Below are positions 6,401 to 59,000 of a stretch of 64,000 nucleotides of DNA, one piece after another. The first letter of the stretch is position 1, and each line of letters begins with the position of its first letter. Source of the DNA: Meghimatium bilineatum (Eukaryota > Mollusca > Gastropoda > Stylommatophora > Philomycidae); the NCBI GenBank assembly GCA_034231615.1, contig CM067307.1, positions 3,797,647-3,861,646 of the forward strand, given 5' to 3'. The position numbers and the translations under genes were made by a program. The notes beneath the pieces are model-generated. The model saw nothing but the letters and a program-made list of their open reading frames with translations, ran no database searches and was not told the DNA's origin.

Positions 6401-9400
6401 CAAACAAGCAACAGAAAATCTCCATATGTATTACAGTTGACATATTTTTTAAAACGATCACATTGTCATCACCAAAATGGGGTGCAAAGGGAACGCATTG
6501 CTCTAGGCGGACCCAGGGTTAGCAGATAACCAAGATCCCAAATGTACCTCCACGTGGTGCACCCTGGAAACAGAAATACAGCAGCTCGTGCTGATTCTGG
6601 CCAAATCATTTGGGGATCGTGTCCGAGAATGTGGAGGTAGCAGATGGAAAGAGATTTGACTGCACAAGAGACAGACAATATCTCCGACACCACCAGCATC
6701 ACCACATATAGCAACACTGTCGACATACAGTGAAGCTAGTCAGTCCAGTCCGAACATTGGAGGGGCGGCCAATGTAAAATGCACGTAAAGGTAAATGCAT
6801 GGCGAGAGACAAATATGTTTCACACAGAGTACAATGAAACAATGAAAGGGCAGAACAGCGCTAGAGGGCAGCGCGAACTGCAAATAGAAAGTGAAAAGTC
6901 CCTAGGAAAGGGAACTACAAGCTCCGTCAGCTCGAGACGGGCTTCTAGTTACCAGAGTTCCTAACAGGCAGAGACCCAGACCCATCCATCGGCGTTTGGT
7001 AAAGCAAAAGACCTAACCCAACTCTAATGTCGAGCCTTCCTAAACCGGAAATATGCTTGCAAAGAGAAAGGGTTCTGTACCCGATGGGTGTAGGCAAGAA
7101 AGGGACAACGATGGCAGTCCTGGCCCAACTCTACTGTCAAGGTTTCCTATACCGGAAGTAACTTGCAGAGAGAAAGGGTTCTGTACTCGATTCGCTCAGG
7201 CACAAAAGGGACAACGATTTAGCCCTGGCCCAACTCTACTGTCAGGTTTTCCTACACCGGAAATACACTTGAAGAGAGAAAGGGTTCAGTACCTGATGGG
7301 CTCAGGCGCTATTGGGACAAGGACGCTCAGCTCGAGAACGCCTTGCTCTCAAACGCGTGGTGTGAGACTCGAACTTGGACAAGGGGTACACGATGTCGGT
7401 GAATGACACCTCGGCTAAGAGGGCGAAAGAGCCAGGGTCCAACTCCTCTGTTGAGTTCTTCCCCTTAAGGAACCAGGCTCATGGATGAGAAACGGTTCAG
7501 TACCCAATGGGCACAGGCACAGCACGTCCAATTACACGAGGCAAGTTCATAGACAGTGGAACACCTCGTTCGAGTGAGACGAGAGCTAGAAAATCGTCTG
7601 GGCGAAGAGTCTTCACTACGCGTGCCTGGAGACAGATATAGAGACTGTCACAGGCTAAGGGTAGCCCACCCGAATTGTCAAGGCATGCCGAAATCGGATG
7701 TGCTAGGCCTACAAGGCGCATAACGGTGGCACAACGTAATCACGCTCCCGGCGGAAATCGCACGGATATCCGTGATGGTTACAATGGAGCGAACGAAAAA
7801 CAAACAAAACAATCACCAAAATCACCACGATTTTTATCGAACAGTATCATTCAATGTATTACATTTCTGTAACCTTACGTTTAATCACATATAAGTCACA
7901 GTTCATACGCTGCAAATAGCAACAGTTAATCTGATACGTCTGTTTCTGATCAGGTGAAGACGCCAGAGTTCTCAACATCAACCCTAGTACAGGTTCCATT
8001 ACTCTCAACTCAAAGATTGACGTGGACCCTAACACTGAAATTAAAGTTCTTAAACCAATACTATTCGGTAAGTTCCGTTATCACAATCTTATTCTAGATT
8101 ATGCGTTAATTTAACGAATTTCATGTTTGGAGTATGTGAACGTTAATGGTATTATTATATCAGTAGTACCTACAAAATTTATTAACAACACAAGAGACAG
8201 AAAGTTGTGGAGAAGCATGATCGCCTTCGTCATTTGGCAAGGCACTTGATTGGTTGATTGATTGTAATCTTAGTATTAACAGTTTTGCTCCGAGATACCA
8301 ATCAATTGGTGCAATTATTGTCTCGAATGGACACAAAACCAATTTATCAGCTTATGAAATAGATTATAAACATACAATATGGTCAAATACCAAAATATAT
8401 TGACAGTGCTCATGTGTGAATCAGTTAAAATATACTTTAGCAGTAACATGAGTAATTATTTGAACATGAATAAAGTAGCGAATTGTTTCTTTCCTGAAAT
8501 TTAGCCAGCGATGGAACCCTTACATCATCTGCAACTCTTACGCTGACGGTGACTGACATCAATGATAACTCTCCTGTCTGTAACCCATCAACCTATTATG
8601 TTGAAGTTGTGGAAGAAGAGAAAGGTATTATAACAAAAATCTTGTTCTCTGATTATTCATCTGTAAGTTAACTCTTTATTTCACATTAGCTGCTGTAATT
8701 CCTAATCAGATGTATTCATTGAACCAGTATTCCAATAAATTTAAAATTCCAACGATCCATTGTACGCACTATGAAATCAATGTTTGCTACTATGACCTCT
8801 GTCCAACCCCCATTCTCATTTCCCATTAGTGTATACCTACGTAATTTGTGGTTAATTGATGTAAATATTATATCAATAAATAATCAATAATTAATTTAAA
8901 TATTCATTTTTTATGGTTAGGGGTTAGGGTTATGTTTAAGCTCACCTGTTTCACTTCACCAGCTCACCTACTAAACTTTCCTTCATCTCAGCGCACTAAT
9001 TCATTTCACCAGCTCACTTGTTTCACTTCACCAACTCATCTGTGTCACTTCACCAGCTCACCTACTTTCCTTCATCCCAGTTCACTTGTTTCCCCTTCAC
9101 CAGCTCACCCGTATCACTTCAAAAGCGGAGATGCCAACCCCCCCCCCCCTTATTTTAATTTTCCGCTCATCATCTACATCTCAGACCCTTCTCCTCATCA
9201 ATATGTTTTATCAATCTGATCTTCTTTAACTACCGATCTAACAATTTCTCATACCTGTCCCACCTTTTGCACTTGAGTTGCTATTTTTTTCACCCAACTC
9301 TTTCATAATATGATTCGTAACAATTCACGTCCCGAACCTATATCTCATCTGCTTTTCACCTGGCCAATCTGCTTTATCCGACCCATTTGACACACACGAT

Positions 9401-12400
9401 TCACCAGACCCACAAAATTTCCATAATCCGCGTGCTTAACCGTACCCAAGAGATAATACTCTCGTGTCTGGGAAAAAACCCGATACTAGAAATGCAAGGG
9501 CTGGGGTAATAAAAGGCAAATGTAAAAAATGAAAGGAAATTAACTCATTTCCGTTCACTTTTACATTCCCCTCACCCACCTGCTTGATTCCGCCAGTCTG
9601 CTTCTCTTGATTTATCTGACAAAACCTTCTTCACTGGACACACATCTGATACACTTACTTTACCTAAACCACATTTTTATTTCCACCCACCTGTTAAATA
9701 CTGTATACACATAAAGACATTATTCAAATTTATTCATTAATACCAACATCATTAATACCAACATCATTTTTTTTTTCTTTCGCTCCATTGTAACCATCAC
9801 GGATATCCGTGCGATTTCCGCCGGGAACGTGATTACGTTGTGCCACCGTTATACGCCTTGTAGGCCTAGCACATCCGATTTCGGCATGTCTTGAAAATTC
9901 GGGTGGGCTACGCTTAGCCAGTGACAGCCTCTATATCTGTCTCCAGGCACGCTTAGTGGATACTCTTCGCCCAGACGATTGTTTGCTCTCGTCTGACTCG
10001 AACGAGGTGTTCCACTGTCTATGAATTTGCCTCGTGTAATTGGACGTGTTGTGCCTGTGCCCATTGGGTACTGAGCCGTTTCTCATCCGTGAGCCTGGTT
10101 CCTTAAGGGGAAGAACTCAACAGAGGAGTTGGACCCTGGCTCTTTCGCCCTCTTAGCCGAGGTGTCATTCACCGACATCGTGTACCCCTTGTCCAAGTTC
10201 GAGTCTCACACCACGTGTTTGAGAGCAAGGCGTTCTCGAGCTGAGCGTCCTTGTCCCAATAGCGCCTGAGCCCATCAGGTACTGAACCCTTTCTCTCTTC
10301 AAGTGTATTTCCGGTGTAGGAAAACCTGACAGTAGAGTTGGGCCAGGGCTAAATCGTTGTCCCTTTTGTGCCTGAGCGCATCGAGTACGGAACCCTTTCT
10401 CTTCGCGAGCATATTTCCGGTTTAGGAAGGCTCGACATTAGAGTTGGATTAGGTCTTCTTGCTTTACCAAACGCCAATGAATGGGTCTGGGTCTCTGCCT
10501 GTAAGGAACACAGGTAACTACAAGCTCGTCTCGAGCTGACGGAGCTTGTAGTTCCCCTTTCCTAGGGACTTTTCACTTTCTATTTGCAGTTCGCGCTGCC
10601 CTCTAGCGCTATTCTGCCCTTTCATTGTTTCATTGTACTCGGTATGAAATCTATGTCTCTCGCCATGCATCTACCTTTACGTGCATTTTACATTGGCCGC
10701 CCCTCCAATGTTCGGACTGGACTGACTAGCTTCACTGTATGTCGACAGTGTCGCTATATGTGGTGCTGCTGGTGGTGTCGGAGATATTGTCTGTCTCTTG
10801 TGCAGTCAAATCTCTTTCCATCTGCTACCTCCACATTCTCGGACACGATCCCCAAATGATTTGGCCAGAATCAGCACGAGCTGCTGTATTTCTGTTTCCA
10901 GGGTGCACCGCGTGGAGGTACATTTGGGATCTTGGTTATCTGCTAACCCTGGGTCCGCCTAGAGCAATGCGTTCCCTTTGCACCCCACCAACATCATTAA
11001 TACCGACATCATTTATACCAACATCATTAATACCAACATCATTAACCAAAAGCTGATTTCCACATCATCCATCAAAGATGTTATCTTGTACCTATTACTT
11101 TCCATCAGGTAGCCGAGTGGTTTGTAACCTCAACTGTACAGATCGAGACAGTTCTCTTAACGGTAACAACAAGCTAATCTACACAATACTCCAGGGTAAC
11201 CCATCTTTGTTTGGGTAAGATTCACCTAATAATTGTGACACTTTGGGGGCTTTTAGTCTATGATATAAGTCATTTTAACAAAGAGAGAGAGTGAGAGAGA
11301 GAGAGAGAAAGAGAAAGGCAGAGAGAGGGGGGATAGAGATAGCCAGATACAGCACCAGCATGTCAGGGATGACGTAACAGGCTGCAAATGAAGATTGAAA
11401 ACACAGGAGCTACAGCAGCATGACTTATGAAGATCCTACCTGTAGTGCAGTGTTTGGTGGTCTTCAGGTGAATGTCTGGATTCCGCGTGGTCTGAGCTTT
11501 GAAACCAAACTAAAGGTTTACAGTGTAGTTGCTCTACCTTCTACGCTATATGCAGCTGAAACCTGGGCTATCTATGCTGAAACCTGGGATGTCTATGCTG
11601 AAACCTGGGCTGTCTATGATGAAACATGGGATGTCTATGCTGAAACATGGGCTGTCTATGCTGAAACCTGGGCTGTCTATGATGAAACATGGGATGTCTA
11701 TGTTTAAAGCTGGGCTTTCTATGCTGAAACCTGGGCTGTCTATGTGTGCATATAAGCGCTAAAGGAGCTGCTAGAAAAAGCATTTGAAGCACTATTTAAA
11801 GACAGCTCTTAAGCACTGCAAGATTGCCCCAAAATCTAAGGAAACCACAACTCTTGGCCATATAACATGCAAAATCCAGGGAAACCGCTGCTCGTGACCA
11901 TACAACATGCAATAGTTAGATCAGTGCTGGTATTTAAAGTTTTCTACAGAGTAGAACACTGTAGGCGATTCAAAAGAAAAAAAAACCAAAAGAAGAGACA
12001 AGACTGCCGTCCGTCATCGCAAGACCTACTACATTCCTGCTCACATTGCAACAGGTCTTTCAGAGCCCAGACTGGAATCATCAGCCATCTGAAGACACAC
12101 AAGGAATAACATATAACTTGACCGTTTTTAATGTCATGCTTCTCTCTGCATGCCAAGAAGAAGGATCATTACTATGGGGGCAGAGGGCATTGATGATTAC
12201 AACATTACTATGGGGGCAGAGGGCATTGATCATTACAACATTACTATGGGGGCAGAGGGCATTGATGATTACAACATTACTATGGGGACAGAGGGCATTG
12301 ATGATTACAACATTACTATGGGGGCAGAGGGCATTGATGATTACAACATTACTATGGGGGCAGAGGGCATTGATGATTACAACATTACTATGGGGGCAGA

Positions 12401-15400
12401 GGGCATTGATGATTACAACATTACTATGGGGGCAGAGGGCATTGATTATTACAACATTACTATGGGGGCAGAGGGCATTGATGATTACAACATTACTATG
12501 GGGGCAGAGGGCATTCATGATTACAACATTACTATGGGGGCAGAGGGCATTGATGATTACAACATTACTATGGGGGCAGAGGGCATTCATGATTACAACA
12601 TTACTATGGGGGCAGAGGGCATTCATGATTACAACATTACTATGGGGGCAGAGGGCATTGATGATTACAACATTACTATGGGGGCAGAGGGCATTCATGA
12701 TTACAACATTACTATGGGGGCAGAGGGCATTGATGATTACAACATTACTATGGGGGCAGAGGGCATTCATGATTACAACATTACTATGGGGGCAGAGGGC
12801 ATTCATGATTACAACATTACTATGGGGGCAGAGGGCATTGATGATTACAACATTACTATGGGGGCAGAGGGCATTCATGATTACAACATTACTATGGGGG
12901 CAGAGGGCATTCATGATTACAACATTACTATGGGGGCAGAGGGCATTCATGATTACAACATTACTATGGGGGCAGAGGGCATTCATGATTACAACATTAC
13001 TATGGGGGCAGAGGGCATTGATGATTACAACATTACTATGGGGGCAGAGGGCATTGATGATTACAACATTACTTATGAGGACATGCGAGTATGAACAAAA
13101 ATAGATAACATAAACTGTTAATAATAATTAAATTTGCTAACAACGAAATATATGGGCAGATGACATTTCAACTGAATAGTCTTCATCAGAACATTGTCTA
13201 TTAGCATCCAATGTGGTACCCCTACGACCCTGAAGGGTTATGAGTTTATTGAATTGATTGATTGATTGTCTATTATCTTTAAATATGTACTCAATAAGTG
13301 GCGAAATGCTATAGGAATTATCAGATTGCAGGGACGAAACTAGTCAAAAACTATAAAACAGAGGCGATCAGAGCGGCCTCCCAGTGCGGAAGTGGCAAAA
13401 GCGAAATCCAGGGACTATACAGTCGAAGTGAAGTTACTTTATGTAAACCTATATGGGATTGGAACTTATCCAGAACACTACAACTTGTAACTTCGGCATT
13501 TTCAACTTGTATAGGCTACCGTTTGCCAAGTTCTGGGAGAAATTAGAGATCCGGCACCTATGAGGTTGCCCATAGTGCATCAATTTTGATTCATAATATT
13601 AAACTAAAACCGCATAACATGAATATATTATGTGATACAATCGGTCCTAGACAAAGTTTTAACAAATTTATCATTTCAGGGTCAGCAACTCTGGAGAATT
13701 TTCTGTGTTATCTCCCTTAGACTATGAGAAAACAAAGTTAGAAATTGTTGTGGTCAGAGTTGAGGATTCTGCTATTACTGGACACTTGCAAACATCTGCA
13801 ACTGTTTCTGTAGTGGTAAGACCATTTTGTTTATAACATTTTTACTTGTTTATCTGATTATTCTCTAAGAACTAAACAAAATATTCCGTATTTATGCAGT
13901 AGAAGCAGTTTAATAATAGACTATAAGTCTATATGATATATCATCAGGTGACATCCTTTCCAGAACGTAGTCCTCCCTATCCATTCATTCATTTTCCTTT
14001 AATGCTGAAGTTAGCGCATAGGCAGAGGTCAGATCTCTCCAATTCTGTCTGTTCAAAGCTATTCTGTGCAGTTCTGGAATAGTATGAATATTGTTTGTTT
14101 TAATTTCTCTAAGTATTGTTCTTCTTACACCTCCCTATGGATCTTTTGAATTCTCAGCTGTCTTGAGCAAGTCACCCGGCCACTTTTAGTGACATGTAAA
14201 AAGTAAAGTAACCCATACCATTTATTAATGCCGTAGGGGTGTGAGATGTTAGCGATCTCACATTTCACAGGCTCTGCAAATGAGGGCAGTAGCCATCTCC
14301 TCTCCCTCGCAGTCTTTACTTCCGGGATTAATCCGGTACCCATTTAAGGCTGGGTCGACCTGGCAGCCGTTGCGATCTGAAAACATTTCCGCCTCAGCTG
14401 GGGAATGAACCCAGGACCACTCATATGCGAAGCCAGTGCGCTAACCACTGCGCTAACGCGGCTCCTCACAAAGACATGCATACAAAGAATAGAAGCATAA
14501 TTTACACCACCTCTGCTATTCTATAGGCCTATACCAAATGTATTTAAAATGATGTAATAATTTCTTCCTCAGGTAAAACCTTCAAATGATCTGTCACCAA
14601 CCTGGGGTACCTGGATACCTGATGTACCTGCAGATTTGACTTACTTTGTAAATGAGAATGCAGGATTTGGTACAAGTGTGCTCACTGTCATCGCTACTGA
14701 TGCTGACTTGGACATGGGGAATTCTGTCACCTACTCCATGGTTGTCATGGCTACAGGTCATCCATATTTATGTTTTACACTTCAATTATGACATCTTTTA
14801 TTTAGTTATTTTAGTCATACCTTGCTCAAACTGGAGACCGATATTCTGCTATATGCACCATAATCTAAAATGAAGGAGCGTAGATAGATAGATCAATAGT
14901 CATATCTTTCTTTCTATATATTGCTTCATCCACCAAAAATAAATTGAGAGATGAAGAATCCATATTATCATTCAAGATTGTTTTAACTTTTCAACAATAC
15001 ATAATGCAAAAAAATTATCACATTATTTACATTTGAAATACAACATGTGTAATCTCAGAAGTAGATGTTCTGGGGAAAATATCTAGCATGCATTTGATTG
15101 GATGAAATACTTTGATAACTCGTGAAATGAAAATCCATTTATAGCATTTATAAGATAAATCATCCATACAAAATGGCAGTGACAATCATCTTTCTAATAT
15201 ATGATACATGTACAGAGAGATAAGTATTCTTTTAGCATTGTCTATATACAACTTCACTCATCCTCATTGACCTTATTGAGTTTTCCTCAGCGATAACTAC
15301 TCGAAATAATACTAAAACATCTGAGAGAGCTTCTGAAGTGAACAGTTCTTGTACTAATCTTGTGATTCATAAATAAATACATTCTGAGGTTCTATGTTTA

Positions 15401-18400
15401 TCTTTAAAACAGGGAGTCAGACAGGGATGCGTGCTTTCACCAGACCTGTTCTCTCTATACAGTGAAAACATATTGCGTGCAATAGTAGATATCCCAGGAA
15501 TATCAGTGTCATGTGACGTATTCCTTCCAGAACGTTGTCTTCCCAATGAACTCTCTGAACCTCTCTCTGTCTTGGGCGATGTGGCTTGCATTTTCTAGCG
15601 ATGTATTCATATTATCTTTAATGTCGTCAGTCCATCGTCTTCTTGGTCTGCCCCTTCTCCTTTTCCCAGGTACTCTTCCCTCCATATATATCAGTGGGAA
15701 TATCAGTGGGAGGACATAACATAAATAATTTGAGATATGCGGATGACACTGTTCTGATTGCAAAAAAGTGAGGAAGACCTTCAAAACTTAATTAAAGTAG
15801 TAGTCACAGAAAGCAAAGAGAAAGGCCTCTTCCTAAATATCAAGAAAACAGAAGTAATGGTTATTTCAAAGAAAGAAAATAACACACCTTGCAAGATCAT
15901 AGTGAATGATATAGTATTAAAACAGGTCCACCAATTCAAATATCTAGGTACAATTATTACAGCAGATGGAAGAAGTTCAACAGAAATAAGATGCAGAATA
16001 GGACAGGCAAAAACAACATTCAGAAAAATGAAAAATATACTGTGTAATATGACCTTGTCATTAGAGGTGAGAAAGAGAGTTCTGCAGTGCTATATAACCC
16101 CTATACTAACATATGGGTGCGAGTCTTGGACAATAAACAAACTGGAAAGTGGGAGATTGGAGGCAACAGAGATGTGGTTCTACAGAAGAATGCTGAGAAT
16201 ACCATGGACTGCCAGAAAAACTAATGTGGAGGTGTTAAAAGAGTCAAATGCGAAACAGACCTTTATCAATAATATAAGAAATAGACAATCTTCATTTTTT
16301 GGCCACTTCATGAGACAGGGAGGTTTGGAGAACACAGTCACGACAGGCAAGATTGAAGGCACCAGAGACAGAGGGCGACAACGTGAGAAAATATTAGACA
16401 GTTTGACAACCTGGCACGGCAAAGAAACAACAACGACTTTGATACATAATACTGTGGACAGAGAGCTGTGGAGAGCCATGACCGCCTACGCCACCCTGCA
16501 TGGCACCTGATGATGATGATGTTTGATCAAGGTTTAATAAAAATTACTTAGATGTCTAGATCTGGCCAGTGGATATAAAGCTGAACAAAGCTATGGGGTA
16601 GCTGCTTTGACCTGGAGAAAAGTCAGCTTTGCTCTGGCAACACATTTGATAATCTAGGATGACCACAGATTTGAAAGCTGAAGAAGAGTAACTTTTTTGA
16701 CCATGATATTTCATGATTCAGCAGTTTAAGTTTTATGAAATTGAAATAAGAATGTTCTTCATTTCTGTTATATAAAGAAATAACAGTTTGTTATACACGT
16801 TTTTATTGTAACTCTCCATGATAAGATCAGATTGTCCCATCTGGGAAGGGGGTGGTGGGGGATGTGTGAAAGCAGAGCAAAGAATAACAACACTGTTTAC
16901 CTACCATTCATGCTGTGAGATGCGAGTAGGAGGTTATGAGTGTGAAGTTGGCTGTACCATCCCATGGTCGTGCTGAAGTCAGATGTGTCAGGCTGAAATG
17001 TGAGTTATCGCAGCAAAGTTGTTAAACATGACACACTGCATTCCATTATCTGGAGTACATCCTGCTAATGTGCAGGAGTTTGAGAATCAATGTGGACGAT
17101 ATCATTTTTTTAATGGAGTCCAATTTTATTTAATTGTCTTTTTTGTGATGTGATACAGAAAAAAACAGCAGAATTATTCTCTTCTTCCGTGCTGTCAGAG
17201 AAAAGGGACCAGTTTTCCTCCATGCTGTCATAGAAAAGGGACCAGTTTTCTTCCTTGCTGTCATAGAAAAGGAACCAGTTTTCTTCCTTGCTGTCATAGA
17301 AAAGGGACCAGTTTTCTTCCTTGCTGTCATAGAAAAGGAACCAGTTTTCTTCCTTGCTGTCATAGAAAAGGGACCAGTTTTCTTCCTTGCTGTCATAGAA
17401 AAGGGACCAGTTTTCTTCCTTGCTGTTATAGAAAAGGAACCAGTTTTCTTCCGTGCTGTCAGAGAAAAGGGACCACTTTTCTTCCATGCTGTCAGAGAAA
17501 AGGGACCAGTTTTCCTCCATGCTGTCATAGAAAAGGGACCACTTTTCTTCCATGCTGTCATAGAAAAGGGACCAGTTTTCTTCCATGCTGTCATAGAAAA
17601 GGGATCAGTTTTCTTCCATGCTGTCATAGAAAAGGGACCAGTTTTCTTCCATGCTGTCATAGAAAATGTACCAGTTTTCATTATTACAATTATTTGTACT
17701 TTCAGGGGGTGGTCCACAACCAGATGCATTCAGCATTAACCCAGTTACTGGAGTATTAAGTACACATTCAATACTTGAGAGGGATGGACAATATGGAGTA
17801 CCCCAGTATACAATTACTGTACAGGTTAGTGTTCAGATTGGTTACAATGAAATAAAAATTATGTATCTACTTGCATCTTTGTTATTTGTAGTGTGATCTG
17901 GTTAACCCCTTAGCTGCAGAGACATTCTTAAGGCTATGATGAAAATCCACCGACATGTTGCGGAAATGCTCCTCGTCTTAGCTTCCCAGGGAAAAAATCT
18001 GTCTGCATGCTTATAATAAAGCATTAAGATGAATTGTTTCCCTGGGAAACTAAACAGAAGAAGATCTCTGCAAAATGGCAGCAACATTTCATCATATTCT
18101 TAAGGATACCTCCGCAGTTAAGGGATTAAGAAAGGATTGAGTCACTTTACTGAAGAACTCAGGTTGTTTAAAATAGTTTTTGGAAAAGGAATCATGCCTG
18201 ATCATGTGGCCAAAACACATGTTTGTTCTTCTGTTAGTGTGATCCATGTAATGTTCTACATATTGTATCCAGGAATTATGGGATGTGGTGCACGGAATGA
18301 CATCGGAGAAAATTGGAAAATTAGAAATGAACAGTTTGTGTGTTGTTGGCCCAGAAGGGGAGCAAATAATAGTGACACTGTTACCTGCTATGTATGCTGT

Positions 18401-21400
18401 AAGAGGTGATGAAATAGGTTATGGAGTGGAGCTGCCTGTCCCATCTCATATGTTGTCAAAGTGACCCGAAAGCCATGCTGAGTCAGATGTGTCAATCTAA
18501 AAGATGCAGATATGGCAGCTGAACTATTAACTGTGACACAATGCATTAAATTCTCTGGAATCTAACCTGCAGAGCTGGAGGAGTTTGAGAATGAACACAG
18601 AAGAAGAAGAAGAAAATCGCATCTAGGATTAACAAGGATTTCCTTTAATCATGAAGTCTACTGAAGACCCATACCTGTAAGGTTACTATTAGCAGAGATT
18701 GAGCCATAGCATGTCTGTAGCATGTTCCAAGATTTCAAGTACGCTAAGGCAAATGTGGTCCAATCCCATATCAGGTGCCTCTAACTATTTTGATTATTTC
18801 CCTTGGCTATGTTTATCAGTTTATGTTTATCATTTATTAATTTAAATATTAATTTATTTAGGGTCAGGATATTTGTGTCTTACATAACTAACCCTAACTT
18901 TAAATAAATTATTGTTTAAATTAGTAAATGATAACATAAACTGATAGACCTAAACATAGCCAAGGGAAATAATCAAAATGGGTAGGCACCTGATCTGGGA
19001 ACAGCTCCCAGTCATCTAGAGCATGTAATAGTTTGATATCTTAATTATTGAATCCACTACTCTTTTTTCTCCTCATCTAGCATCTCGCCATCATATTCCA
19101 ACATCTGAACCTTTTCAATCATCACTCCTTCTATCTCTCTGTCCTTTATATTTTCTCCCTAATCATCTTCTTCATCTTCTCTTTCACAATTTATCTCATC
19201 ATGTTCTCTCTCAACATAATATCTCGTCATGTTCTCTCATCATTTATCTCTTCTACTTATCACACACGCAGGCGTCTGATGGTTCAGTCAACACTCACAC
19301 AATCAATAGAACAATCTATCTGGTAGTAAAGGATGCCAATGACAATGCCCCACGGTTCCTTGGAACACCTTACCCTGTCATTGTCCTACAGGAAGATATG
19401 GCTCAAGCGGGAGCTGTTGTTACAAGAGTGAGTATGATAGTGTTTGAGTGATAAATGTGGGGGGGGGGGGTGCATGATGTGAGAGTTCTTATTTTTTTGG
19501 AACTTTTTGTATGAGAAGTCGACTTAGTAGTAGGTTGAATCAAAATCCGGCCGTTAACGTTCTACTGGTGATACAATTTAGTGTTGTAGTGGTGCCTTTT
19601 TTCTTTTGTGCGATTGGAATGTGCTTATATCTTTTTATCATTATTATTATCATTACATACTCATGAATGGAACTTTATTTATTAATATGATTAGATACTC
19701 ATATATCAAGCTTAATTTATTAGTACGATTAGATACTCATATATGGACCTTCATTTCCTGTTTTCTCGATTCATCTTGTCACTGGTTTTAAATGAGGTCA
19801 ACAAGAGAATGAGGTTGACTCTTTGCACAACTATTCCTCCCTGAAATCAACTATTCCTCCCTGAAATCAACTATTCCTCCCTGAAATCAACTATTCCTCC
19901 CTGAAATCAACTATTCCTCCCTGAAATCAACTATTCCTCCCTGAAATCAACTATTCCTCCCTGAAATCAACTATTCCTCCCTGAAATCAACTATTCCTCC
20001 CTGAAATCAACTATTCCTCCCTGAAATCAAAATCCCCCAGGGCAAGTCATTTTCACATCCACAAAAATTCACTCAGAGGGAACAAAAATTTTCCTCTGAC
20101 TTTAGGTGCATGCAGTTTCGTCGAGCACGTCATGTAGTACATATGCCAGATCATCGCTTGGCTAAGATACTTGTCTATGGTGAGTTACAGAAGGACATGC
20201 CTTCTCAGGGTGACAAATACAAGTGCTACAAAGACCTCACTGAAATTCTTTGAAATAGACCAAAATACATGGGAAGAATTTGTAGCTGCATGACACTCTA
20301 CAGTCAAAAAAAGGTGCAGCATCTTGTGACAAGAGGAGAAATGAAACAGCTCAACAGTGAAGAGTAACTAGAAAGTCACGGGTAGACCAGAAACCATCTA
20401 CAGTGATCTTCCCATGCCTAAATTATTCAAAAACATTTGAGGTCAGAATAGGGCTCACTAGCCATCTGCAAACTCATAGACAAGGGCATAACTCTTAACT
20501 GTATTTCAAAGGGGGATGTAACAAATGGTCATCATCATCATGTGATGGATGAACAGCAACAACACAGTCAAGTTATGACATGCTGAAGAACACATTGAAT
20601 ATGAGAAATGAGCATCGGTGGACATGTGTCGAGGGCCATGATGATTGTCTCATCAACCAATTATTGTTACAGAAGGAAATCTTTGAGAAAGTTGTTGGAG
20701 TGAGTTATGAGAAAGTTGTTGGAGTGAGTTATGAGAAAGTTGTTGGAGTGAGTTATGAGAAAGTTGTTGGAGTGAGTTATGAGAAAGTTGTTGGAGTGAG
20801 TTATGAGAAAGTTGTTGGAGTGAGTTATGAGAAAGTTGTTGGAGTGAGTTATGAGAAAGTTGTTGGAGTGAGTTATGAGAAAGTTGTTGGAGTGAGTTAT
20901 GAGAAAGTTGTTGGAGTGAGTTATGAGAAAGTTGTTGGAGTGAGTTATGAGAAAGTTGTTGGAGTGAGTTATGAGAAAGTTCTGTAAGTGTTATGGGAAA
21001 GTGGTTGGAGTTATGAGAAAGTTGTTGGAGTGAGTTATGAGAAAGTTGTTGGAGTGAGTTATGAGAAGTTGTTGGATTGAGTTATGAGAAAGTTGTTGGA
21101 GTGAGTTATGAGAAAGTTGTTGGAGTGAGTTACGAGAAAGTTGTTGGAGTGAGTTATGAGAAAGTTGTTGGAGTGAGTTATGAGAAAGTTGTTGGAGTGA
21201 GTTATGAGAAAGTTGTTCAAGTGTTATGGGAAAGTTGTTGGAGTTATGAGAAAGTTGTTCAAGTGTTATGGGAAAGTGGTTGGGGTTATGAGAAAGTTGT
21301 TGGAGTGAGTTATGAGAAAGTTGTTGGAGTGAGTTATGAGAAAGTTGTTCAAGTATTATGGGAAAGCTGTTGGAGTGAGTTATGAGAAAGTTGTTCAAGT

Positions 21401-26833: not shown

Positions 26834-26920
<87 letters not shown>

Positions 26921-29018: not shown

Positions 29019-29077
<59 letters not shown>

Positions 29078-47000: not shown

Positions 47001-50000
47001 TGCCCCTCCAATGCTGGGAACGTACTGACTAGCATCACTGTGTGTCAACAGTGCCACTGTATGTGTTGGCGCAGTGGTGTCTGAGATATTGACTGTCTCT
47101 TTTGTAGTCAGTTCTCTTTCCATCTGCTTCCTCCATATTCAAGGACACGATCCCCAAAAGGTTCAACCAGATTCACTACAAGCCGCTGTATTTCTGTTTC
47201 CAGTGTGCACCATGAGGAGGTACTTTTGTGATCTTGGTTATCTGCTAACATAGGGTCCACCAAGAGCAGTGGGGTACGCTTTGCCCCCTTCAGTAGCTCA
47301 GTTGTACATTCAACACACAGAGTATCTGACTATTTACATCCACTCATCTTCTTGTGTCTTTATCTCTAATCTTGCTGTTATGTGTCAATCAATACAAGGT
47401 AACTGCATGAAACGTAACATGTTATGTGTCAATCAATACAAGGTAACTGCATGAAACGTAACATGTTATGTGTCAATCAATACAAGGTAACTGCATGAAA
47501 CGTAACATGTTATGTGTCACAGGTTTGCATGATGATCAGTTTTTGTGCTATGGTATGGCTTGATGTGTGGCTCAGAAACATGGACAATAAACAAACAACT
47601 AGAAGACAGAATTGATGTCTTTGAGATGTGGATATATACAAGAATAGGGAGAACATCATGGAAAGAGAAGAAAACAAACAAAGAAGTTCTAACAACACCC
47701 AGTATGAAGAAAGAATTATTAAAGGAAATAAAGATCAAGCAAATACAATATTTTGGACACATTAAAAGGCATGACACCTTGTTGAAGACCTTACTTGAGG
47801 GAAGACGAACAAGAGGTAGTCATAGATATAAGTGGGAGAGTAACATCACAAGATGGACAGGTTACAGTCTAGCAGAGTACACCACCAAAACAAAACAAGA
47901 GACAGAGGATGTTGGAGGTTTGTTGCAGCAAACCTTCGTTGTGGAGACGGCACTTAATGATGATGACAATGAGGTTTTGATGCAAGATATACAAATATGT
48001 TATGATGTCATCATATGTCTGTTATGATGTCATCATATGTCTGTGACTCCTTAAATCCACCTTCTACTTCATTCTCAACTGCCATGTAGTGTTGAATTCT
48101 CAAGTTGAATGTTTTTGCTACTGACCAATGCATGTGTTGACGCAGTGGTGTCAGAGATATTGACCGTCTCTTTTGTAGTCAATTCTCTTTTCATCTGCTG
48201 CCTCCACATTCAAGGACACGATCCCCAAAAGTTTTAGCCAGAATCAGCACAAGCCGCTGTATTTCTGTTTCCAGTGTGCACCATGAGGAGGTACTTTTGG
48301 GAGAAAGTACTGACTGTTCATTCTCATTAATTTGCAGAACTATTTCAGTCTCTGTTGTTCAATATTTCTTACCACAAATGTTCTATTCAACAATTCTTGT
48401 GATCTATTTATATAATGATGCACCTGAAATATGACTGATACAATTAACATTATAGACAATCTTGTCAAATGTATAATTGATTCATATATTTATTGGATAA
48501 ATAAATTGTCAAAATCATAGTTAATTGTTAAAATGTATAACTGATCTGTTCTACTTCCAGACTCCCTGGACTACGAGACATCACCAGCTCATACATTAAC
48601 TGTCACAGTGATAGATTCTGGAATTCCGAGTCTAACATCTACTCTCACAGTGTATGTCACAGTTATTAATCAGAATGATGGTGGTCCGATATTTTCTGCA
48701 ACACGTCCCGTAAACATTTCTGAATCAGTAGATGTTGGCCAGTTTGTTGTAGGTAAGTTCTCATACTTTTGAAACCAACAATTACTTTGCCCATGTGGTT
48801 TTAAAAATTATCATTTTGACAGAATACTATTCTACCTGATGATCCAGACACACATGCAAAATGTTCGTTCTCAAACTCCTGCAGATTAGCAGGATATAGT
48901 CAGAAGAACGGAATGCACTTTGTCATGGTTCACAACTTTGCTGCACTATTCGATCAGACACATCCAACTTCAGCACATATGGCTTCTGGATCACTTTGTC
49001 CCTACAGGGGATGGAACAGCCAACTGAACCCTCCTTAGTCACCTCTTATGACATGTATAGAAGAGAAACAGTGTTGCTATTCTTTGTTCCCTTTCTGGCC
49101 CTGACAACACACAGGCACATTTATTTTTATACCTAGGACTTATGAGCGATGAAACTTGTGATTCCTATCTGGAACAGAGAGATTTTCATACATTTTTTAT
49201 ATATTCAAAAGACTCTTAATGTTATGCAATGATTTCAGAAGTGTCTTCCTCCTCAGATGGGTTCTAAATCTGTATATGGAAGCTATGTTCCACCATTTTG
49301 TATTCCCATATATTATTTTTCATGTTCTCTCTCAAACTCTCATTGGATCTCTCTTATAGCCGGACTATTGTTCTACTAGATCTCTCTTATAGCCGGACAA
49401 TTGTTCTACTAGATCTCTCTTATAGCCGGACAATTGTTCTACTAGATCTCTCTTATAGCCGGACAATTGTTCTACTATATCTCTCTTATAGCCGGACAAT
49501 TGTTCTACTAGATCTCTCTTATAGCCGGACAATTGTTCTACTAGATCTCTCTTATAGCCGGACATTTGTTCTACTAGATCTCTCTTATAGCTGGACAATT
49601 GTTCAACTAGATCTCTCTTATAGCAGGACAATGGTCCTACTAGATCTCTCTTATAGCAGGACAATGGTCCTACTAGATCTCTCTTATAGCAGGACAATGG
49701 TCCTACAAGATTTCCAACAGGATGTGGTCCAGAAAATGGAAATGCATTGTGCCGCTGTTTCATTTGCGTTTATGGCCCCACACACCCAACTTTGGCATAT
49801 ATGCACATATTAAATCAAATGAAAATTTGCAACAATTTAGTAGTGTCAGTGTTCACCTTACAGACAGCAAGTTGTTCAACAATTTAGTAGTATCAGTGTT
49901 CACCTTACAGACGGCAAGAGCAGTAAAGAAATACACAATAGATATAGTGAAGCACACCAAGCCCAATTTCCAGAAACAAAAATGGAGATTTAAACACCAA

Positions 50001-53000
50001 AATTAACATTATTCAAAACAATTGTTATGCCAACGCTGTGTTACCAATGGCAAACATGGACAACAATAGCACAAGACAAACGTAAACTTGTGACAGCTGA
50101 AATGGCATGCTTACGCAGAATCCTAAGAATATTGCTAAGAGACAGAGTGAGAAATGAGGACTTTAGACACAGAACTGGCACTGCCACAATCTTGGAATAT
50201 ATTAAGAGCAAACAGATCAAATGGATTGCAAACATCAGCAGACTACCACCAGACAGCATACCACAGCAAGCTATGCTACACAGATACAGTGACGGCAGAC
50301 CTAGAGGTTGACCACGAAAACGAAGGACCATCAAAATAAAAGAGGTGACAAATTCTACAATATACTCAGCACACACGAGGGCCATCTCCAGAAAACTATT
50401 CTAACCCTGATGCTGAAAGGCGATAAAGAGTTTAGCGAATATAAAAATAGAATGTTCACCTTTGACTTCATGGTTTGATAGTGACCATAGCATAACACAA
50501 ATAGCAAAATGTCACTTGAATATAAAAAGGCAATGATAAAAACAATATTGTCAAAATTTTTGTCAAAGATGTGACAGCTGTAGACCCAGATGGAAATGAC
50601 ACAGAATATGGTGATCCTCAATACAGCATCATAGCTGGAGACACATTGAATCACTTTTTTATTGATGCTTACAATGGTCGTGTGTCTACCAGGAGAAAGC
50701 TAGACTTCGAAACAATTCCATCATACCAGCTAGTGATACAAGTAAGTGTATTTCTTTGTAATTCTTTAATAAAAATATCAGGTATGTATTCATTCATATA
50801 AACAATAAATATAATCCATTTTGAATCATGTAAGATCACATAATAAACATTTACCTGTTCCTGTGTTTTAACACTCTTGGATGAATGAGTTGCCATAGTG
50901 TAATGTTAAGTCATTCGCCCATTGACCAGCAGACCCCGGTTTCAAGTTCATTTGTCATTCACCCATTGACTACCAGATCCCAGTGTCAAGTTCACTGGTT
51001 AATCATTGTTTGAAATAAAAATTACTTCTGTTGTTCACCCATCCATCAGAAAGTAGGACCATGGCTCATACTCCGGTTAGGTAAAGAAACGGCATAATAG
51101 TTACTGGAAAAGTGCGAAGGTGACACTACTCCGGAAGTTTCTGCTCACAAATTAGTAGGCAGACGTGCACTTATGGGAAAAATGATATTGTATGACACTG
51201 GATCATAACTCAGCTTAGAGTTAGTTTGTCAGTTGTCTCGTAATCCAGGGAGTCTGGAAGTAGAACAAATAAGTCATAAATTTTAACAATTTAAAACAGC
51301 TTAGAGTTACCTTTACCTATACTTCTAGATGATTTGTTGAGCAAAGTATTTGATGCAAATATTCCCTGTGCTTTGATGCAAATATTCCCTGTGCTTTGAT
51401 GCAAATATTCCCTGTGCTTTGATGCTGATTTCTAATCAAGAATTTTCAACACAATTTATTGTCTCTTGAAACAAACACTGTACTGTGAAAGATATTATTT
51501 AATATTCTTAACAGGCAAAAGAGAAAATAGGTCCTAATTCATCATTGGTGACCCAACTGATCAACGTAATTGACGTTAATGATGAGAAACCGGTTTGTGG
51601 CACCACTTTCTTAGTGACAGTCCCAGAAAGTGAACCTGTCAATCATACTGTGATTGATCTGTTGTGTAATGATGCAGATGCTGGTACAACCTTGACATAC
51701 ACTATTGTGTCGGGAAATACAAGCATATTTAAGGTAAGCTGTTTAAATTTGCTCAATAAATGTCTTTAAAAAATAACTCTTGAATATTGGTTGGGAAGAA
51801 TTTTAGCAAATCAAGTAAGAGAATACACCAAATATCAATATATTTCTACAACAATAAGAAGAATTTCAGCAAATCAAGTAAGAGAATACACCAAACATCA
51901 ATATATTTCTACAACAATAAGAAGAATTTCAGCAAATCAAGTAAGAGAATACACTAAACATCAATATATTTCTACAACAATAAGAAGAATTTCAGCAAAT
52001 CAAGTAGGAGAAGACACCAAACATCAATATATTTCTACAACAATAAGAAGAATTTCAGCAAATCAAGTAAGAGAATACACTAAACATCAATATATTTCTA
52101 CAACAATAAGAAGAATTTCAGCAAATCAAGTAGGAGAAGACACCAAACATCAATATATTTCTACAACAATAATATGAAAATGATGGACCTATATCAGACA
52201 TGTACTTAGGATGAATGAAAGCAAACTGCCACTACAAATATTAAAATGGTGGCAAAATAAAACGAGAAAAACCAAGAGAGACTCTTTGCATTCCAACCAT
52301 CAAAGAAGGCATGACTATGGGTCTCAACAACATGCAAGAGTTACTCAGAGTAGCTTCACATCGCTCGAACTGGAGAGCTTTGGTTTCTGCCCTATGCACC
52401 ATATTCAGCAATGAAGGGACATAGATAAATAGATTTTGATGTGTATGTTAGAATCTTCATGTCTGTACCAGTTTATTCTTGAATCTCTTTCATATACAAT
52501 AATCCCTGAAGCAATGCATTATTTCTGTAGAATTAATAAATGTACACAAATGCACTGGGTATATTGTTTTTGTGACAGCATGTTGGTAACATATGTATTT
52601 ATGACACAGCAATCAATCCCTTATTGTTTGGCTGTGGTGTTATTCTAGGCAATATAAATGTATTTAGTATATTGCTATTGCTGAATAAACAGTCCTAATG
52701 CTCATTTGTCTACAGCATGGTTTGATCCTGGTACCTTGTCTGTCTAAGACGCAATCTGTACCACATTACTATAGTACCAGATGTGACATCAAATCTGTCT
52801 TTGTGACATGTTCTTTAGAGAACGTTGACCTCACTGTCACGCTGTAAATCTCATGGTTTTGTGCAAGCTTTCCGGCCTCTGCCATGTTCAGAAGGTCTTT
52901 GATATCCTATGTCCATCGCAGTCTTGGTCTACCTCTTGTTCTCTTTTGTGTAACTTTTCCCTCCATGGTTAATCTTTCTAAACCATTGTGTCTTTTTATA

Positions 53001-56000
53001 TGTCCAAAATATATTATCTTGCATGTTCTAATAGTTTTGAGGAGAAATGACTTCTTCAATGTTCAGGTCTTTCCGGACATCTCTGTTGATTCATTATTCT
53101 GTCCATGATATACTTAGGACAATCACATATTTAATTTCAAATACTGATATATTCCTTTCCATTATTTTTCTATATATACTTGTCTATGTATTTATATTAG
53201 GCAATTCTAAATATTTCCAACAAATTTCTTGCAGATGAGTGGAAGTCAAATCAAGTTGCTGAGAAAGTTGGACTACGAGGAACTTCCAACATCAAATGAT
53301 TTGATCATCTTGGTCTCTGATTCAGTAGCCAGTCATGATCTGAATGTCTCTGGAAGTGTCATTACTGGAAGTGTAGATGAAGGTCCTCCAAGATTTGAAA
53401 GAGGTAAAGATTTGATTCTCAGGAGAATAAGTATAAAATGTTTAACCCAATGTAAAATATATTTTTTTATAAATGGTAGGGAAGATGGGGATTCAAGTCT
53501 CAATTTTCTGTTTTCATGTATAGGCCCTAATTATTCTGCCTTTCAAGATATTATTTTTATTTTGTGATCATTTGATAGCTCATCCATTCCTCTAAGAACA
53601 GACTAAGTATAAACCCAGATGTTTTGCCCCAGTACAGTGTAAAGAGAACGTTTCACCATCGGTATCAGAAACAATGAAGATCTAAAGTAATTTGCAATGA
53701 AACGAGAGACATGGAAATCTATGACATCCACCCTATATGCCGTCTTAGGTCCTAAAGGAATAGTTAACTAACTAACAGTGTAAAAATTTAATTAAATACA
53801 TCAAAAATTATAATGTGACATTTTGCCTCAGTGCTGTGTAAAAACTCACAGTCAAAGGGAAAAAAAGTTTCAACTCATTATTCAATCATAAATTATCTCA
53901 ATTATTCACAATTGGCAGAAATATGTGTTCCCATAGCCTGGTTCTATCAGAAGAGGACTTTGAGAAAAAATGCAGGACATAAGACAGGGATAACTGGGGA
54001 CTTTACAATCAGGAAAGATGAACAGTAATCCATTCAGTTTTGTATTTTTTTTTCTACAGAAATTAGACCACCAGAGTGTTTCCACAACAGCAATCACAGT
54101 CTTCCTATTAAATGTCCCCTGATCTTTATAATGCTTGTAGGTTCTCATTTGGGCAACCTGGGGACAATTTTTTAAACATTTTACTATGCTTATAATTAAT
54201 AATATAATAACACAACTTATCTCTTAGAATACAGAGACTAAAACCAATGTTTTTAAGAGATGCTATGTCAAGAACTAAGATTGAAGGCACCAGAGACAGA
54301 GGGCGACAACGTGAGAAAATATTAGACAGTTTGACAACCTGGCACAGCAAAGAAACAACGACTTTGATACATAATACTGTGGACAGAGAGCTGTGGAGAG
54401 CCATTACCGCCTATGCCACCCGGCATGGCACCTGATGATGATGATGTCAAGAACTATTATTTAAAGCCACATCAGGTGACTTCTAGTATAAAATGAGGAC
54501 AACTGAAAGCCGTCTCCAGTTGTGTCTTATATTTTAAGAGTTAACAAAAAGTCTGACCATAACAATCACGAATATTAACACATAATACATAACCTTCAAT
54601 AGTAACAACTTGTAATTGAAATTCACTAACTAAATCTGTCACATAAGATACAAACTGTTTGATGTGAAAGCTAATAAATATAGTTTTTGTGGGGCAAGAA
54701 GTCACAGCTACCTAACATAGACCCTATTGTGACTATTACTCCCACCCCTAAAAATAATTTACCAGTTGGTCGCAGAAAAATTGGATATATTCCATTTGTA
54801 ATACATTTACTCTACACTAGTAAATGGTTGATGAACCATTCAAAAATCAAACCATTTTGTCAATGACAAGTTGTGTTAAACTCACCTTTTTTAAGATCCT
54901 GTATTTCAACATCAGGCTAGGAAAAAATGCAAAAGTGGGATAATTACAAAAGTATTAGGAGCATAGTTCCCATATTTTGCTGCATTAAGTTTTGTACCAG
55001 AAAATAAATGAAACAGTACAAACATTTTCATTGTCTCCACTTCAGATTTCTGTATATGTTATACATGACTTTTTACACTTTAGACTTTAAGCCTCATCTT
55101 ACCCTATTGAATGTATTGATAGACCCACCAAAAAAAGGCTTTTGGTGCTCAATTCATCCTTTTATTTTATTAAAATACGCATAGGCCCCTATAAATTCTA
55201 AAATCTACAAATTTATGAAAAAATACATTGATAGTTAGTTATATAGAAATTTTTTTTACAATAATGTATATGATTCTAAAATAATACCCAGCATTGATAA
55301 TATGTGTAAATGGGTTTCCGTAGTGTTAAGTGTCATCATATAAAAAAACATGAGTTCTCTTTATAACGTCATTGTTTTCTGTGTCAGTTCTGCTACTAGT
55401 TGTACAAATATCCAATAATTCTAAAGATATTCAATCATTTCATGATGATTAGTTTTGTTTATTGCCTCATGCTATTTAATTCATCTTTCTATTGACTGTG
55501 TTATGATGATTTCTATCTTTGTTATTTTTATTACATGCATTTTTTAAATATTAATGAACCAGGCATATCTTGAATAATTTACATTCTACAATATTCAACA
55601 ATTTGTGTTCTACAAAACACAAGCACACAAAGACCCACTGAAAAATATTACATCATTTCTGTTTAATCAACATATTCTATGGAGATCCATGTGCATACAT
55701 TTTCAAAATTGTCTGTTTAATAAACATATTCTATGGAGATCCATGTGCATACATTTTCAAAATTGAATATTATATTAGAATCCCATACAGATAATAAATA
55801 TAGTACACATATTTTCTGGTAATAATACTTTTGTGAACTAGCATGTGTCAACCTTTCCTATACTAGAAGCTTAGAAAAGGGTTCAAATATGGTGATTGAT
55901 TTTATTGTACTTCGGTTACATGTTGAGAGTACCCCTTACAGCACGTAACTCCATAGCTTCAAGCAATAATCCATGGATCTCTGAAAAAATCCACTTTATA

Positions 56001-59000
56001 AACAAAATGTTACCAACAAGACTTTAATCATGCTTCCCCGCTGAAGACAGATGTGTCGGGCCACTGGCACAAATAAAACGGCCACACAATGCCTTTACAT
56101 TCTCTGCACTGCATCCTGCTGGAAATCTAGTAGGATCATGGTCCTGCTACAAGGGACCTCAAGCGGGAGTTTGAGAATGAACACTGAAGAAGAAGAATAA
56201 TCATGCTTCCATGGAACCTAACTTTACCTTTAGTAACCATTGCATATTTTCCCAAACAGTTCATTTTGCATGCAATGTTTTTGCTTCCATGCCTAGAAAG
56301 AGGACAGTGAACCTAGATTTTGGACCCTGAACTAGAAGACCTTGGCCCAGTTGCCACAATGAACTAGAAGACCTTGGCCCAGTTGCCACACTGAACTAGA
56401 AGCCCATGACCCAGAGGCCACACTGAACTAGAAGACCTTGGCCCAGTTGCCACACTGAACTAGAAGACCTTGGCCCAGTTGCCACACTGAACTAGAAGCC
56501 CACGACCCAGTTGCCACACTGAACGAGAAGCCAATAGCCCAGTTGCCACACTGAACTAGAAGCCCATGATCCACTTGCCACACTGAATTAGAAGCCCATG
56601 TCCCACTTACCACACTGGTGATAAAGATAATCTTCAGTAAATTACAAACTGTCTGTCCAGACAACAGGCGTTACGAACAATTAACGTCCAGGAAGGCTGG
56701 CTTCTGAACACTATATTAAAGAAAAAGCTAGTTTTTTTGGTCACATTAAGAGACACGACGGCACGGAGAGTGTGTTACTGGAGGAGATGATAGAAGTTAA
56801 CAGGGGCAAAGGCCGACCAAGACGCCATTGGACAAAAGACATTCAAGAATGCCTGCACATGTCACTGAAAGATGCAGGGCAACTTGCTCAAGACCGCGGA
56901 GAATTCAAGAGATCCATAGGAAAGACTATGTTCTGGAAAGAATATGTCATTTGATGATGATGATGTCCAGACAAAATTTTCACACCACATAATGCATTCC
57001 TGTATTTCACATATTACATTTCTGTATTTCATATGAAGCATTTTTGTATTTCACATAATACATTTCTGTATTTCACATAATACATTTCTGTATTTCACAT
57101 AATATATTTGTGTATTTATCAACATGTTCACTCATTCTATTTTTAGATACATATCTAGTTCATGTTCTGGAAAATCAGACAGTTTACAGCAGTATCTTTG
57201 CTGTGACTGCAACTGACCCAGACTCACCTCGTGATTCAAATGGACAAGTCAAGTATTCATTGATGGTTCCCCATCCTCCATTTTCCATAGATGCACAGAA
57301 TGGACAGGTTAGAAACTACTTAATATCAAATATATCTTTTTATTTGTATAATAGCAACCCATTAGTTAGTTCAAGAGCTGCTTGTCTAAGAGGACACACA
57401 ACAGCATCCGTTGGTGCAAGTTGCTTATGATTCCTTGTATACACTGTGGAAGAAATTGTATCACTCAGATTCGTCTTGTGAGTCACATTCATCATGGCCA
57501 AGAATCTTAGATTAAATTTCTTATAGCACAATAATAATTTTGTTCTATAATCCACAAGTTATAATGACTATTTGTCACATCTAGTTTTGAAATTAAGTTG
57601 CTCATGTCTTTGGCTATGGGCTCTTAGATGGCTAATAAGCCCTACTCTACTTGTGACTTTCTTGCAACTCCACTCTGCACAGCTGCTGCATTTCTACTGT
57701 TTTTATAAGATGTGCTTTTCTTTACTGTAGTTCTGTTTTCTGCAAGTTCTTCCCATGTATCTTAGTCTATTTTATAGACTTTAAGTGAGGTTTTTAATGA
57801 GTCCTTTTAGCGCTTCTTTTGGCTTACTTGAGATCGTATGCCCTTCTACTACATACCATAGAGAAGTACCTTGGCAATGTATGCTTATTGTTCCCTTCCG
57901 TTGAAGGATGATTCTCTTTCAGGCTCCTAATTTGATCCATCTCTCATCCTTGGTTGGCTGCAACGTATCTCAAACATCTCCTGTCTCTTGTCTTGGTGGT
58001 GCACTCTGCTAGACTGTAACCTGTCTATCGTGTGATGTTACTCTCCCACTTGTATCTCTGCCTACCTCTTGCTCGCTTCCCTTTGACTTTACCCTCAAGT
58101 AAGGTCTTCAATAAGGTGTCATGTCTTTAATGTGTCCAAAGTATAACATATTTACAAGCTACAACACAGAGAATGGAAGCCCCCAATGTAAAACAAAAAG
58201 TCTTTATAAATTACAACCATAAAGTGTAATATCTTTCAATTTATATCCAGATTTTACTTACTGGATTGTTAGACAGAGAGAAAGAGGCTGCACATATGTT
58301 GGTTGTCAAAGCAGAGGATGCTCAAGGCTCTAACTCTGCAACTGTATCAGTTGTGGTTGACGATGTCAATGACAATAATCCACTGTTCACATCATCTGTA
58401 TACAGGTAAGTCATGTTGTTCACATCATCTGTATACAGGTAAGTCATCTTTATTCTACTTTAAATATAAATCCATAATTTTGAATAGAGTTCGGGGAATG
58501 AAATCTTAATTTTGTAAGGACACAGCACTTTCAATGAGAGATTAATTATATTTTGGATTGCTTCTAGTGTCTGTAATCAAAGGCATTAGGTATGTTGATT
58601 ATCACACCGGATTATCACACCGGATTATCACACTGGATTATCACACTGGATTATCACACTGGATTATCACACTGGATTATCACACTGGATTATCACACCG
58701 GATTATCACACCGGGTATATCCATAGATCATCAGATCTCTGCTTCAATAAATCTCTCAGTTTATACCCGCTGATGGTTACGGTTCTGTTTTGGTTCAGTA
58801 CTGTTTTTAAAAATCTTTGTCAGGTGTTCAGTTTTGTGTGTTTATTTCTAGGTTGTTCCTTGGTAAAGGTCCCTGTTTGACCATAACATTGAAAATGTCA
58901 TTATAATACAATATACAAGTACATTATAATATAATATGCCAATAAACTAACTATAAAATTGCACTATAATGTGTAGAATCCTAAAAGTAAGCAGTCATAT

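Follow-up and report, generated by a model that had tools for sequence, protein, structure and literature searches.

A giant cadherin gene with about 30 predicted repeats

We analysed a stretch of 64,000 nucleotides from the gastropod mollusc Meghimatium bilineatum (assembly GCA_034231615.1, 1.61 Gb in 32 contigs), at positions 3,797,647 to 3,861,646 of the forward strand of contig CM067307.1. This whole stretch is called the window, and coordinates are counted from its first base, also where they run past its ends. According to our predicted gene model, the window holds the first part of a single giant-cadherin gene with about 30 extracellular cadherin (EC) repeats. Two types of linkers tend to alternate between these repeats, and pairs of cysteines (Cys) accompany the alternation.

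The exon model was produced with our own splice-aware profile aligner script, which scanned from -50 kb to 144 kb; the repeat-masked runs covered -3 kb to 131 kb. The model places 28 exons inside the window, all with GT-AG borders (28/28), but these borders and the open frames were imposed by the script and are not independent support for the model. The aligner profile was trained in part on the gene under study; a first profile search, seeded with other cadherins of the same genome, recovered most exons. Individual junctions may be wrong by a few codons, as in the case of two acceptors near 17.7 kb. The first spliced runs took up minisatellites and retrotransposon pieces, which were masked afterwards, and filler exons at 99.7-101.8 kb were removed by hand from the final model. 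The middle exon of EC23 (102779-102857, past the window) apparently has a GC donor (CAG/GCAAGT).

The model gives one gene of 30 EC repeats (3,162 residues of EC sequence in total) that extends beyond both window ends. EC1 starts about 940 bases upstream of the window, EC13 is the last repeat within it, and EC30 ends near 127.9 kb. Cadherin-like exon matches of at least 6 bits lie on the plus strand only (three minus-strand matches score lower), and the profile search found just two matches, each of at most 5 bits, between -50 kb and EC1. The predicted product belongs to the cadherin superfamily by its tandem EC repeats and its calcium ligands XEX, DRE, DXNDN, DXD, and XDX. It matches PF00028 (Cadherin; cut-off 28.8 bits) with 104.8 bits for the EC3-EC5 piece and 43.9 bits for EC1-EC2; the EC30 piece (28.1 bits) and EC7 alone (27.1 bits) fall slightly under the cut-off. 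Its PDB matches are unspecific, with CELSR1 ranking first, and neither the PDB nor the Pfam search pointed to a closer family. We found no close paralogue among the 70 of 234 candidates that were scored, the top match elsewhere to EC7-EC12 being 35 percent identical; short weaker matches in this set reach 41 percent.

The protein probably carries one membrane span, and we recognised by eye a membrane-span exon near 137.3 kb, past the window end. The stretch between EC30 and this exon (about 127.9-137.5 kb) shows, also by eye, strand- and helix-like segments. It has no Pfam match, as joined by eye to the membrane exon with intermediate exons possibly missed, and among PDB sequences Septin-2 alone appears, at E 0.54 or worse, with none under E 0.5. 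This segment perhaps resembles the membrane-adjacent domains (MADs) of tip-link cadherins. The MAD of PCDH15, CDH23, and CDHR2 has a ferredoxin-like fold.

Linker types mostly alternate along the chain

We number each linker by the EC repeat that precedes it and class it as canonical when D-x-N-D is present and as degenerate when this motif is altered. All exons of the gene lie on the plus strand. Part of EC1 is encoded at 1782..1861, and the next exon (3893..4089) holds the end of EC1, linker 1 (NANDNK, 3945-3962), and the start of EC2. The middle of EC2 (7954..8067) is followed by the exon 8505..8624, with the end of EC2, linker 2 (DINDNS, 8555-8572), and the start of EC3 including its first Cys (8579-8581). 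EC3 continues at 11109..11214, its middle part with Cys 23 (11123-11125), the pair Cys 27 (11135-11137), and TDRD, and at 13680..13815, its later part. The exon 14573..14756 carries the degenerate linker 3 (PSNDLS, 14579-14596) and the start of EC4. The middle of EC4 lies at 17724..17824 (an earlier run had picked the alternative acceptor 17706), and its end at 19272..19427, with linker 4 (DANDNA, 19332-19349) and the start of EC5. Two further exons of EC5 (22788-22869 and 24690-24793) precede the one at 28255..28377, in which the end of EC5 is joined to EC6 by the degenerate linker 5 (PDNEYT, 28321-28338).

EC6 has two more exons (30553-30649 and 32201-32333). Linker 6 (DVNDNN, 33696-33713) shares the exon 33662..33776 with the start and first Cys of EC7 (33720-33722), whose second Cys (38012-38014) is encoded at 37997..38141. 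The degenerate linker 7 (AVNEER, 38583-38600) lies between the end of EC7 and the start of EC8 at 38485..38727. After the middle of EC8 (39688..39833) come its end, linker 8 (DVNDNN, 42340-42357), and the EC9 start with the first Cys (42364-42366), all at 42310..42406. The middle of EC9 contains the second Cys (44095-44097; exon 44057..44194), and its end leads through the degenerate linker 9 (NQNDGG, 48668-48685) into EC10 at 48561..48752. The middle of EC10 is at 50569..50741; its end, linker 10 (DVNDEK, 51572-51589), and the EC11 start with both Cys (51596-51598 and 51665-51667) share the exon 51515..51733. The last linkers of the window are the degenerate linker 11 (SVDEGP, 53370-53387), between the end of EC11 and the start of EC12 at 53235..53403, and linker 12 (DVNDNN, 58362-58379), between the end of EC12 and the start of EC13 at 58251..58405. 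The middle of EC12 (57147..57307) lies between them, and two more exons of EC13 (60623-60732 and 62161-62271) follow.

An earlier sequence-only reading of the window had described eleven linkers, those after EC2 to EC12, as strictly alternating between canonical and degenerate forms. Our exon model reproduces them letter for letter: six of the eleven are canonical, the alternation is strict, and its chance given this composition is 0.0022. The p-values for parity and for the Cys pairs are single-test values, uncorrected for the number of tests. The 17 linkers past that stretch (linkers 13-29) are a fairer test than the window, where the pattern had been spotted. Here, D-x-N-D is present at 7/8 even and 3/9 odd linkers, with a one-sided p of 0.036 and a two-sided p of 0.050. 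Over all 29 linkers, it is found at 13/14 even vs 3/15 odd ones (Fisher 1.2e-4), and neighbouring linkers differ in type in 23 of 28 cases, where 14.3 would be expected (p 0.0005). Linker type thus has a well-supported period of two. The strictness holds across the eleven linkers and is lost further on: past linker 12, canonical linkers follow the odd repeats 15, 19, and 29, and the even linker 28 is degenerate. The alternation is a bias, whose strictness stops at linker 15.

We compared the gene with 11 further cadherin loci from this genome (the eight best Cadherin matches and three others), several of which are long-frame protocadherin-like genes that may not represent long atypical cadherins. 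D.ND is present in 38/49 of their linkers, and some of the remaining 11 are probably misparsed. Linkers of the form x-x-N-D/E that lack the first Asp occur once among these 49 (an x-x-N-E, by our own count) vs 9/29 in the giant cadherin (Fisher 4e-4).

Degenerate joints keep most ligands outside the linker

The sequence-only reading had taken the loss of DxNDN to mean the loss of calcium binding. We scored nine ligand positions at each joint, six outside the linker and three within it: in the repeat before the joint, the Glu of XEX and the two acids of DRE (the third position of which counted as kept when Asp or Glu); in the linker, the Asp, Asn, and Asp of DxND; and in the repeat after the joint, both Asp residues of DXD plus the one of XDX. 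Linker ligands are indeed reduced at the degenerate joints, but those outside the linker are retained, with 74/78 kept at the 13 degenerate joints vs 90/96 at the 16 canonical ones. Within the window, the corresponding counts are 29/30 (five degenerate linkers) and 34/36. Over all 29 joints, 164 of 174 non-linker ligands are kept and D.ND is complete at 16. The degenerate linkers have lost mostly the first Asp (kept in 1/13) and rarely the Asn (kept in 11/13); their fourth position is Asp in four and Glu in seven, so that 11 of the 13 have an acid there.

Published work, cited here by PMC number and drawn on in excerpt, offers several precedents. The calcium-free joint EC9-10 of PCDH15 has replacements in all five motifs, those before as well as those after the joint (PMC5120219). 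Such a two-sided loss is not what we find, given the 74/78 non-linker ligands kept. Although DXE and DXNDN are altered at the EC2-3 joint of PCDH24, this joint is straight, carries two calcium ions, and has no lower strength in simulations (PMC8691648). A change of Asp to Glu within DXNDN is unlikely to be neutral, since D341E of PCDH19 is listed among patient mutations that are taken as a sign that subtle changes might impair function (PMC5115871). Because the non-linker ligands are kept and 90/117 of all nine positions remain, against 138/144 at canonical joints, the degenerate joints appear by sequence to be weakened and not emptied. They probably still bind calcium, unlike PCDH15 EC9-10.

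Cysteine pairs fall on odd repeats

The Cys pairs that had been described before degenerate linkers, with EC5 as the exception, are confirmed in the exon model with their codons checked. They occupy repeat positions 3 and 27 in EC3 and EC7, 3 and 30 in EC9, and 3 and 26 in EC11 (spacings of 24, 24, 27, and 23); EC3 has an additional third Cys at position 23, and EC5 has no pair. In the whole protein, the pair occurs in 8/30 repeats (EC3, 7, 9, 11, 15, 19, 21, and 23), all of them odd (8/8, p 0.0011). The period of two therefore holds beyond the previously described stretch, where the four further pairs (EC15, 19, 21, and 23) are all on odd repeats (p 0.029).

The two Cys stand in constant alignment columns, one at position 3, two residues past the linker Pro, and the other two residues before DXD, with spacings of 20-27 over the eight repeats. 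The first is present in nine repeats, the second in eight, and both in eight (co-occurrence, Fisher 1.5e-6); only EC14 has the first without the second, and no repeat has the second without the first. In the control loci described above, the pair is found in 0/48 repeats (Fisher 2.5e-4 against 8/30), the second Cys alone in 1/48, and, with another profile, the first Cys alone at one repeat start of locus L028. EC14 (about 65411-68250, past the window) has its first Cys at position 3, and Cys 94 is a possible partner. EC16 (about 71715-77203, also past the window) has Cys 77 and 90, 13 residues apart and, in our own reading, on strands F and G.

Where the pair sits bears on its putative function. 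In cadherins, strand B and the first half of strand A are antiparallel. By the published motif definition, DXD and XDX of a repeat serve the joint that precedes it (PMC5120219). Given this assignment and this topology, the two Cys are placed at the top of the repeat, where a disulfide plausibly links the beginning of strand A to the end of strand B. The joint before a Cys repeat is canonical in 8/8 cases (Fisher 0.003), and the joint after it, about one domain length away from the pair, is degenerate in 6/8 (Fisher 0.09); the pairs of EC15 and EC19 stand before canonical linkers. It had been suggested that the disulfide compensates for the lost calcium joint. This is unlikely, because both Cys adjoin the preceding canonical joint and the degenerate one is at the far end of the repeat.

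Little trace of duplication by pairs

Growth of the gene by duplication of repeat pairs had also been proposed, together with a check of whether odd and even repeats cluster in a tree of EC repeats. Our maximum-likelihood tree of 29 repeats (EC23 left out, Cys and linker columns removed) does not cluster them by parity: it requires 9 changes, and 156 and 196 of 500 shuffles are equally low. Not one of its 26 inner branches reaches the program's mark of strong support, and its end branches have a median of 1.69 changes per column. Intron positions are not common to repeats of the same parity (p 0.83). With the linker and Cys columns removed, same-parity repeats are more similar at p 0.02 without EC23 and p 0.05 with all 30 repeats; by halves, the values are p 0.34 (EC2-14) and p 0.16 (EC14-30). 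None of these results is convincing. The group formed by the Cys repeats EC3, EC9, and EC11 (85/77) and the slightly higher similarity of Cys repeats to each other (p 0.05) speak for duplication by pairs. All in all, this origin gains little support, and the repeats seem too divergent to allow a decision.

Introns and surroundings

The introns are rich in minisatellites, which lie at 35415-37640, 44224-46186, 12167-13073, 20684-21554, and elsewhere. Examples are a 28-base unit in about 80 copies and a 36-base unit in about 54, the latter at 99 percent identity. The 36-base array starts 30 bases past the EC9 exon and has long open frames on both strands. A 33-base tandem duplication at 58384-58447 (1.9 copies, 100 percent) runs across the donor of the exon 58251-58405 and creates two GTAAGTCAT 5' splice sites, the second of which, if used, gives an in-frame TAA. 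In the intron before the exon starting at 51515, positions 51234-51291 (minus strand) repeat 48523-48580 (plus strand) in inverted form, with 91 percent identity over 58 bases; the copied piece comprises the acceptor and the opening bases of the exon shared by EC9 and EC10. This copy accounts for a weak minus-strand cadherin match at 51216-51266. The intron within EC4 contains a reverse transcriptase fragment on the plus strand (15758-16507; RVT_1, 20.2 bits, under the Pfam cut-off). ARAGORN found no tRNA, and Rfam gave one tRNA-like match (14390-14462, minus strand, 32 bits, with no ARAGORN counterpart), perhaps a tRNA-derived short repeat.

Comparison with known cadherins

Among the titles and abstract beginnings returned by our literature search, within the listings examined, none described a cadherin with alternating linkers. 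PCDH15 has 11 EC repeats and CDH23 has 27, and Fat and Dachsous are reportedly self-bending. Dachsous1 (27 EC) and Fat4 (34 EC) resemble the giant cadherin in their very long EC arrays with mostly calcium-motif linkers, and the excerpt describing them mentions no regular alternation (PMC9935876). The EGF and laminin-G domains that Fat has before the membrane (PMC9935876) did not appear in our scan of the stretch after EC30, from which exons may be missing.

Among the cadherins of intermicrovillar and tip links (PCDH24, also called CDHR2, with PCDH15 and CDH23), some non-canonical linkers retain a share of their ligands, as in the two-calcium EC2-3 joint of PCDH24 mentioned above. PCDH24 has 9 repeats (PMC8691648), and the excerpts on this group describe single non-canonical linkers. 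PCDH24 also has a membrane-adjacent domain (PMC8691648), where the stretch after EC30 is without a Pfam match. Its EC2 contains an F-G disulfide (C187:C201, 14 apart; PMC8691648), which the Cys 77/90 of EC16, 13 apart, resemble. Human CDHR3 offers a likeness for the pairs on odd repeats: its EC6 contains C566-C592, reported as the only native disulfide, with a spacing of 26 (PMC6301718) that falls in the range of 20-27 seen here. We infer for this disulfide a place near the repeat's start. Unlike in the giant cadherin, it occurs in one repeat only of a six-repeat protein (PMC6301718). Calcium-free joints amid canonical ones are described for LI-cadherin EC1-4, where EC2-3 lacks the motif and binds no calcium (PMC8427231), and complete and partial calcium-free joints for DN-cadherin (PMC8325961); the excerpts on these two do not describe them as alternating along a long chain.

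Two joint types in one chain

The explanation we prefer, and hold to be moderately probable, is that the chain has two types of joints, the odd ones calcium-holding but weakened, and a Cys clamp at the even ones, so that it would consist of two-repeat rods. Calcium would still be bound at the odd joints, but their middle site would be weakened, with fewer ions held or a lower affinity. The odd joints would be softer than the even joints, yet not empty hinges. In 8/15 odd repeats, a disulfide, to which Cys co-occurrence and topology point, would pin the repeat top beside a complete joint. The outcome would be two-repeat rods, stiff at the inner joint and connected by more compliant, calcium-dependent joints. 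From the sequence-only reading, which had proposed rigid two-domain rods on flexible or differently stabilised hinges, we would keep the rods with softer odd joints and drop the free calcium-less hinges. Several observations weigh against this explanation. The parity rule is broken at linkers 15, 19, 28, and 29. Linkers 11 and 28 lack all three scored linker ligands (the register of 28 being arbitrary); given these two and the overall count of 90/117 against 138/144, some odd joints could be nearly empty of calcium. The assignment of the first Asp of DxNDN, the ligand most often lost, to the middle calcium site is taken over from classical cadherin structures.

Were the odd joints calcium-free, they would act as free hinges, and the disulfide of the preceding repeat would make up for the loss. 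The altered D.ND at 12/15 odd linkers, the bare linker 11, and the occurrence of an Asp-to-Glu change in DXNDN among the PCDH19 patient mutations (PMC5115871) agree with this. It is nevertheless quite improbable in our view, given the 74/78 non-linker ligands kept, where PCDH15 EC9-10 has all five motifs replaced (PMC5120219), and given a Cys pair at the wrong end of the repeat, tied to the preceding canonical joint (8/8) and less so to the following degenerate one (6/8). That the alternation should be apparent only, born of chance together with a loose definition of the motifs, or of errors in the exon model, is very improbable. The pattern was spotted in the same sequence, which makes the window statistics optimistic, the exon-joining profile was partly trained on this gene, and the p-values are uncorrected; but the alternation recurs in the 17 linkers beyond the stretch where it was noticed, the four additional Cys pairs are all on odd repeats, and none of the 48 control repeats has a pair.

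The two traits could instead be relics of an old duplication of two-repeat blocks, linker types and Cys being inherited markers with no special mechanical meaning. The common period of two, the same-parity similarity (p 0.02 and 0.05), and the grouping and slight likeness of Cys repeats fit this account. Against it stand a tree with no parity clusters and no strongly supported inner branch, the similarity values in the two halves, and the intron positions; besides, the persistence of the traits over end branches of such length would seem to need selection. We consider a relic unlikely, while giving it real weight. Returning to weakened odd joints, we tentatively add an extension that we also think unlikely to hold: a calcium-graded chain, in which the even joints, with their full site and, in 8 repeats, a disulfide clamp, would be filled and rigid over a wide range of calcium, and the odd joints, short of one middle-site ligand, would already be empty at a higher calcium level.

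The protein probably serves in adhesion or as a long mechanical tether, like other giant cadherins. An EC repeat is about 4.5 nm long, so that a 30-repeat protein would measure well over 100 nm if straight. Cadherin stiffness is set by the calcium at the joints, and the giant members of the family serve as mechanical tethers and as polarity cues. If the chain is calcium-graded, a drop in extracellular calcium would soften every other joint of the tether. Its mechanical response to calcium would then be built in, have two steps, and recur over much of the 30-repeat chain. An altered DxNDN alone is not grounds for calling a joint a calcium-free hinge. The two joint types, set in turn along one protein, would offer a natural series for studying the effect of one lost ligand and the patterning of stiffness along a chain.

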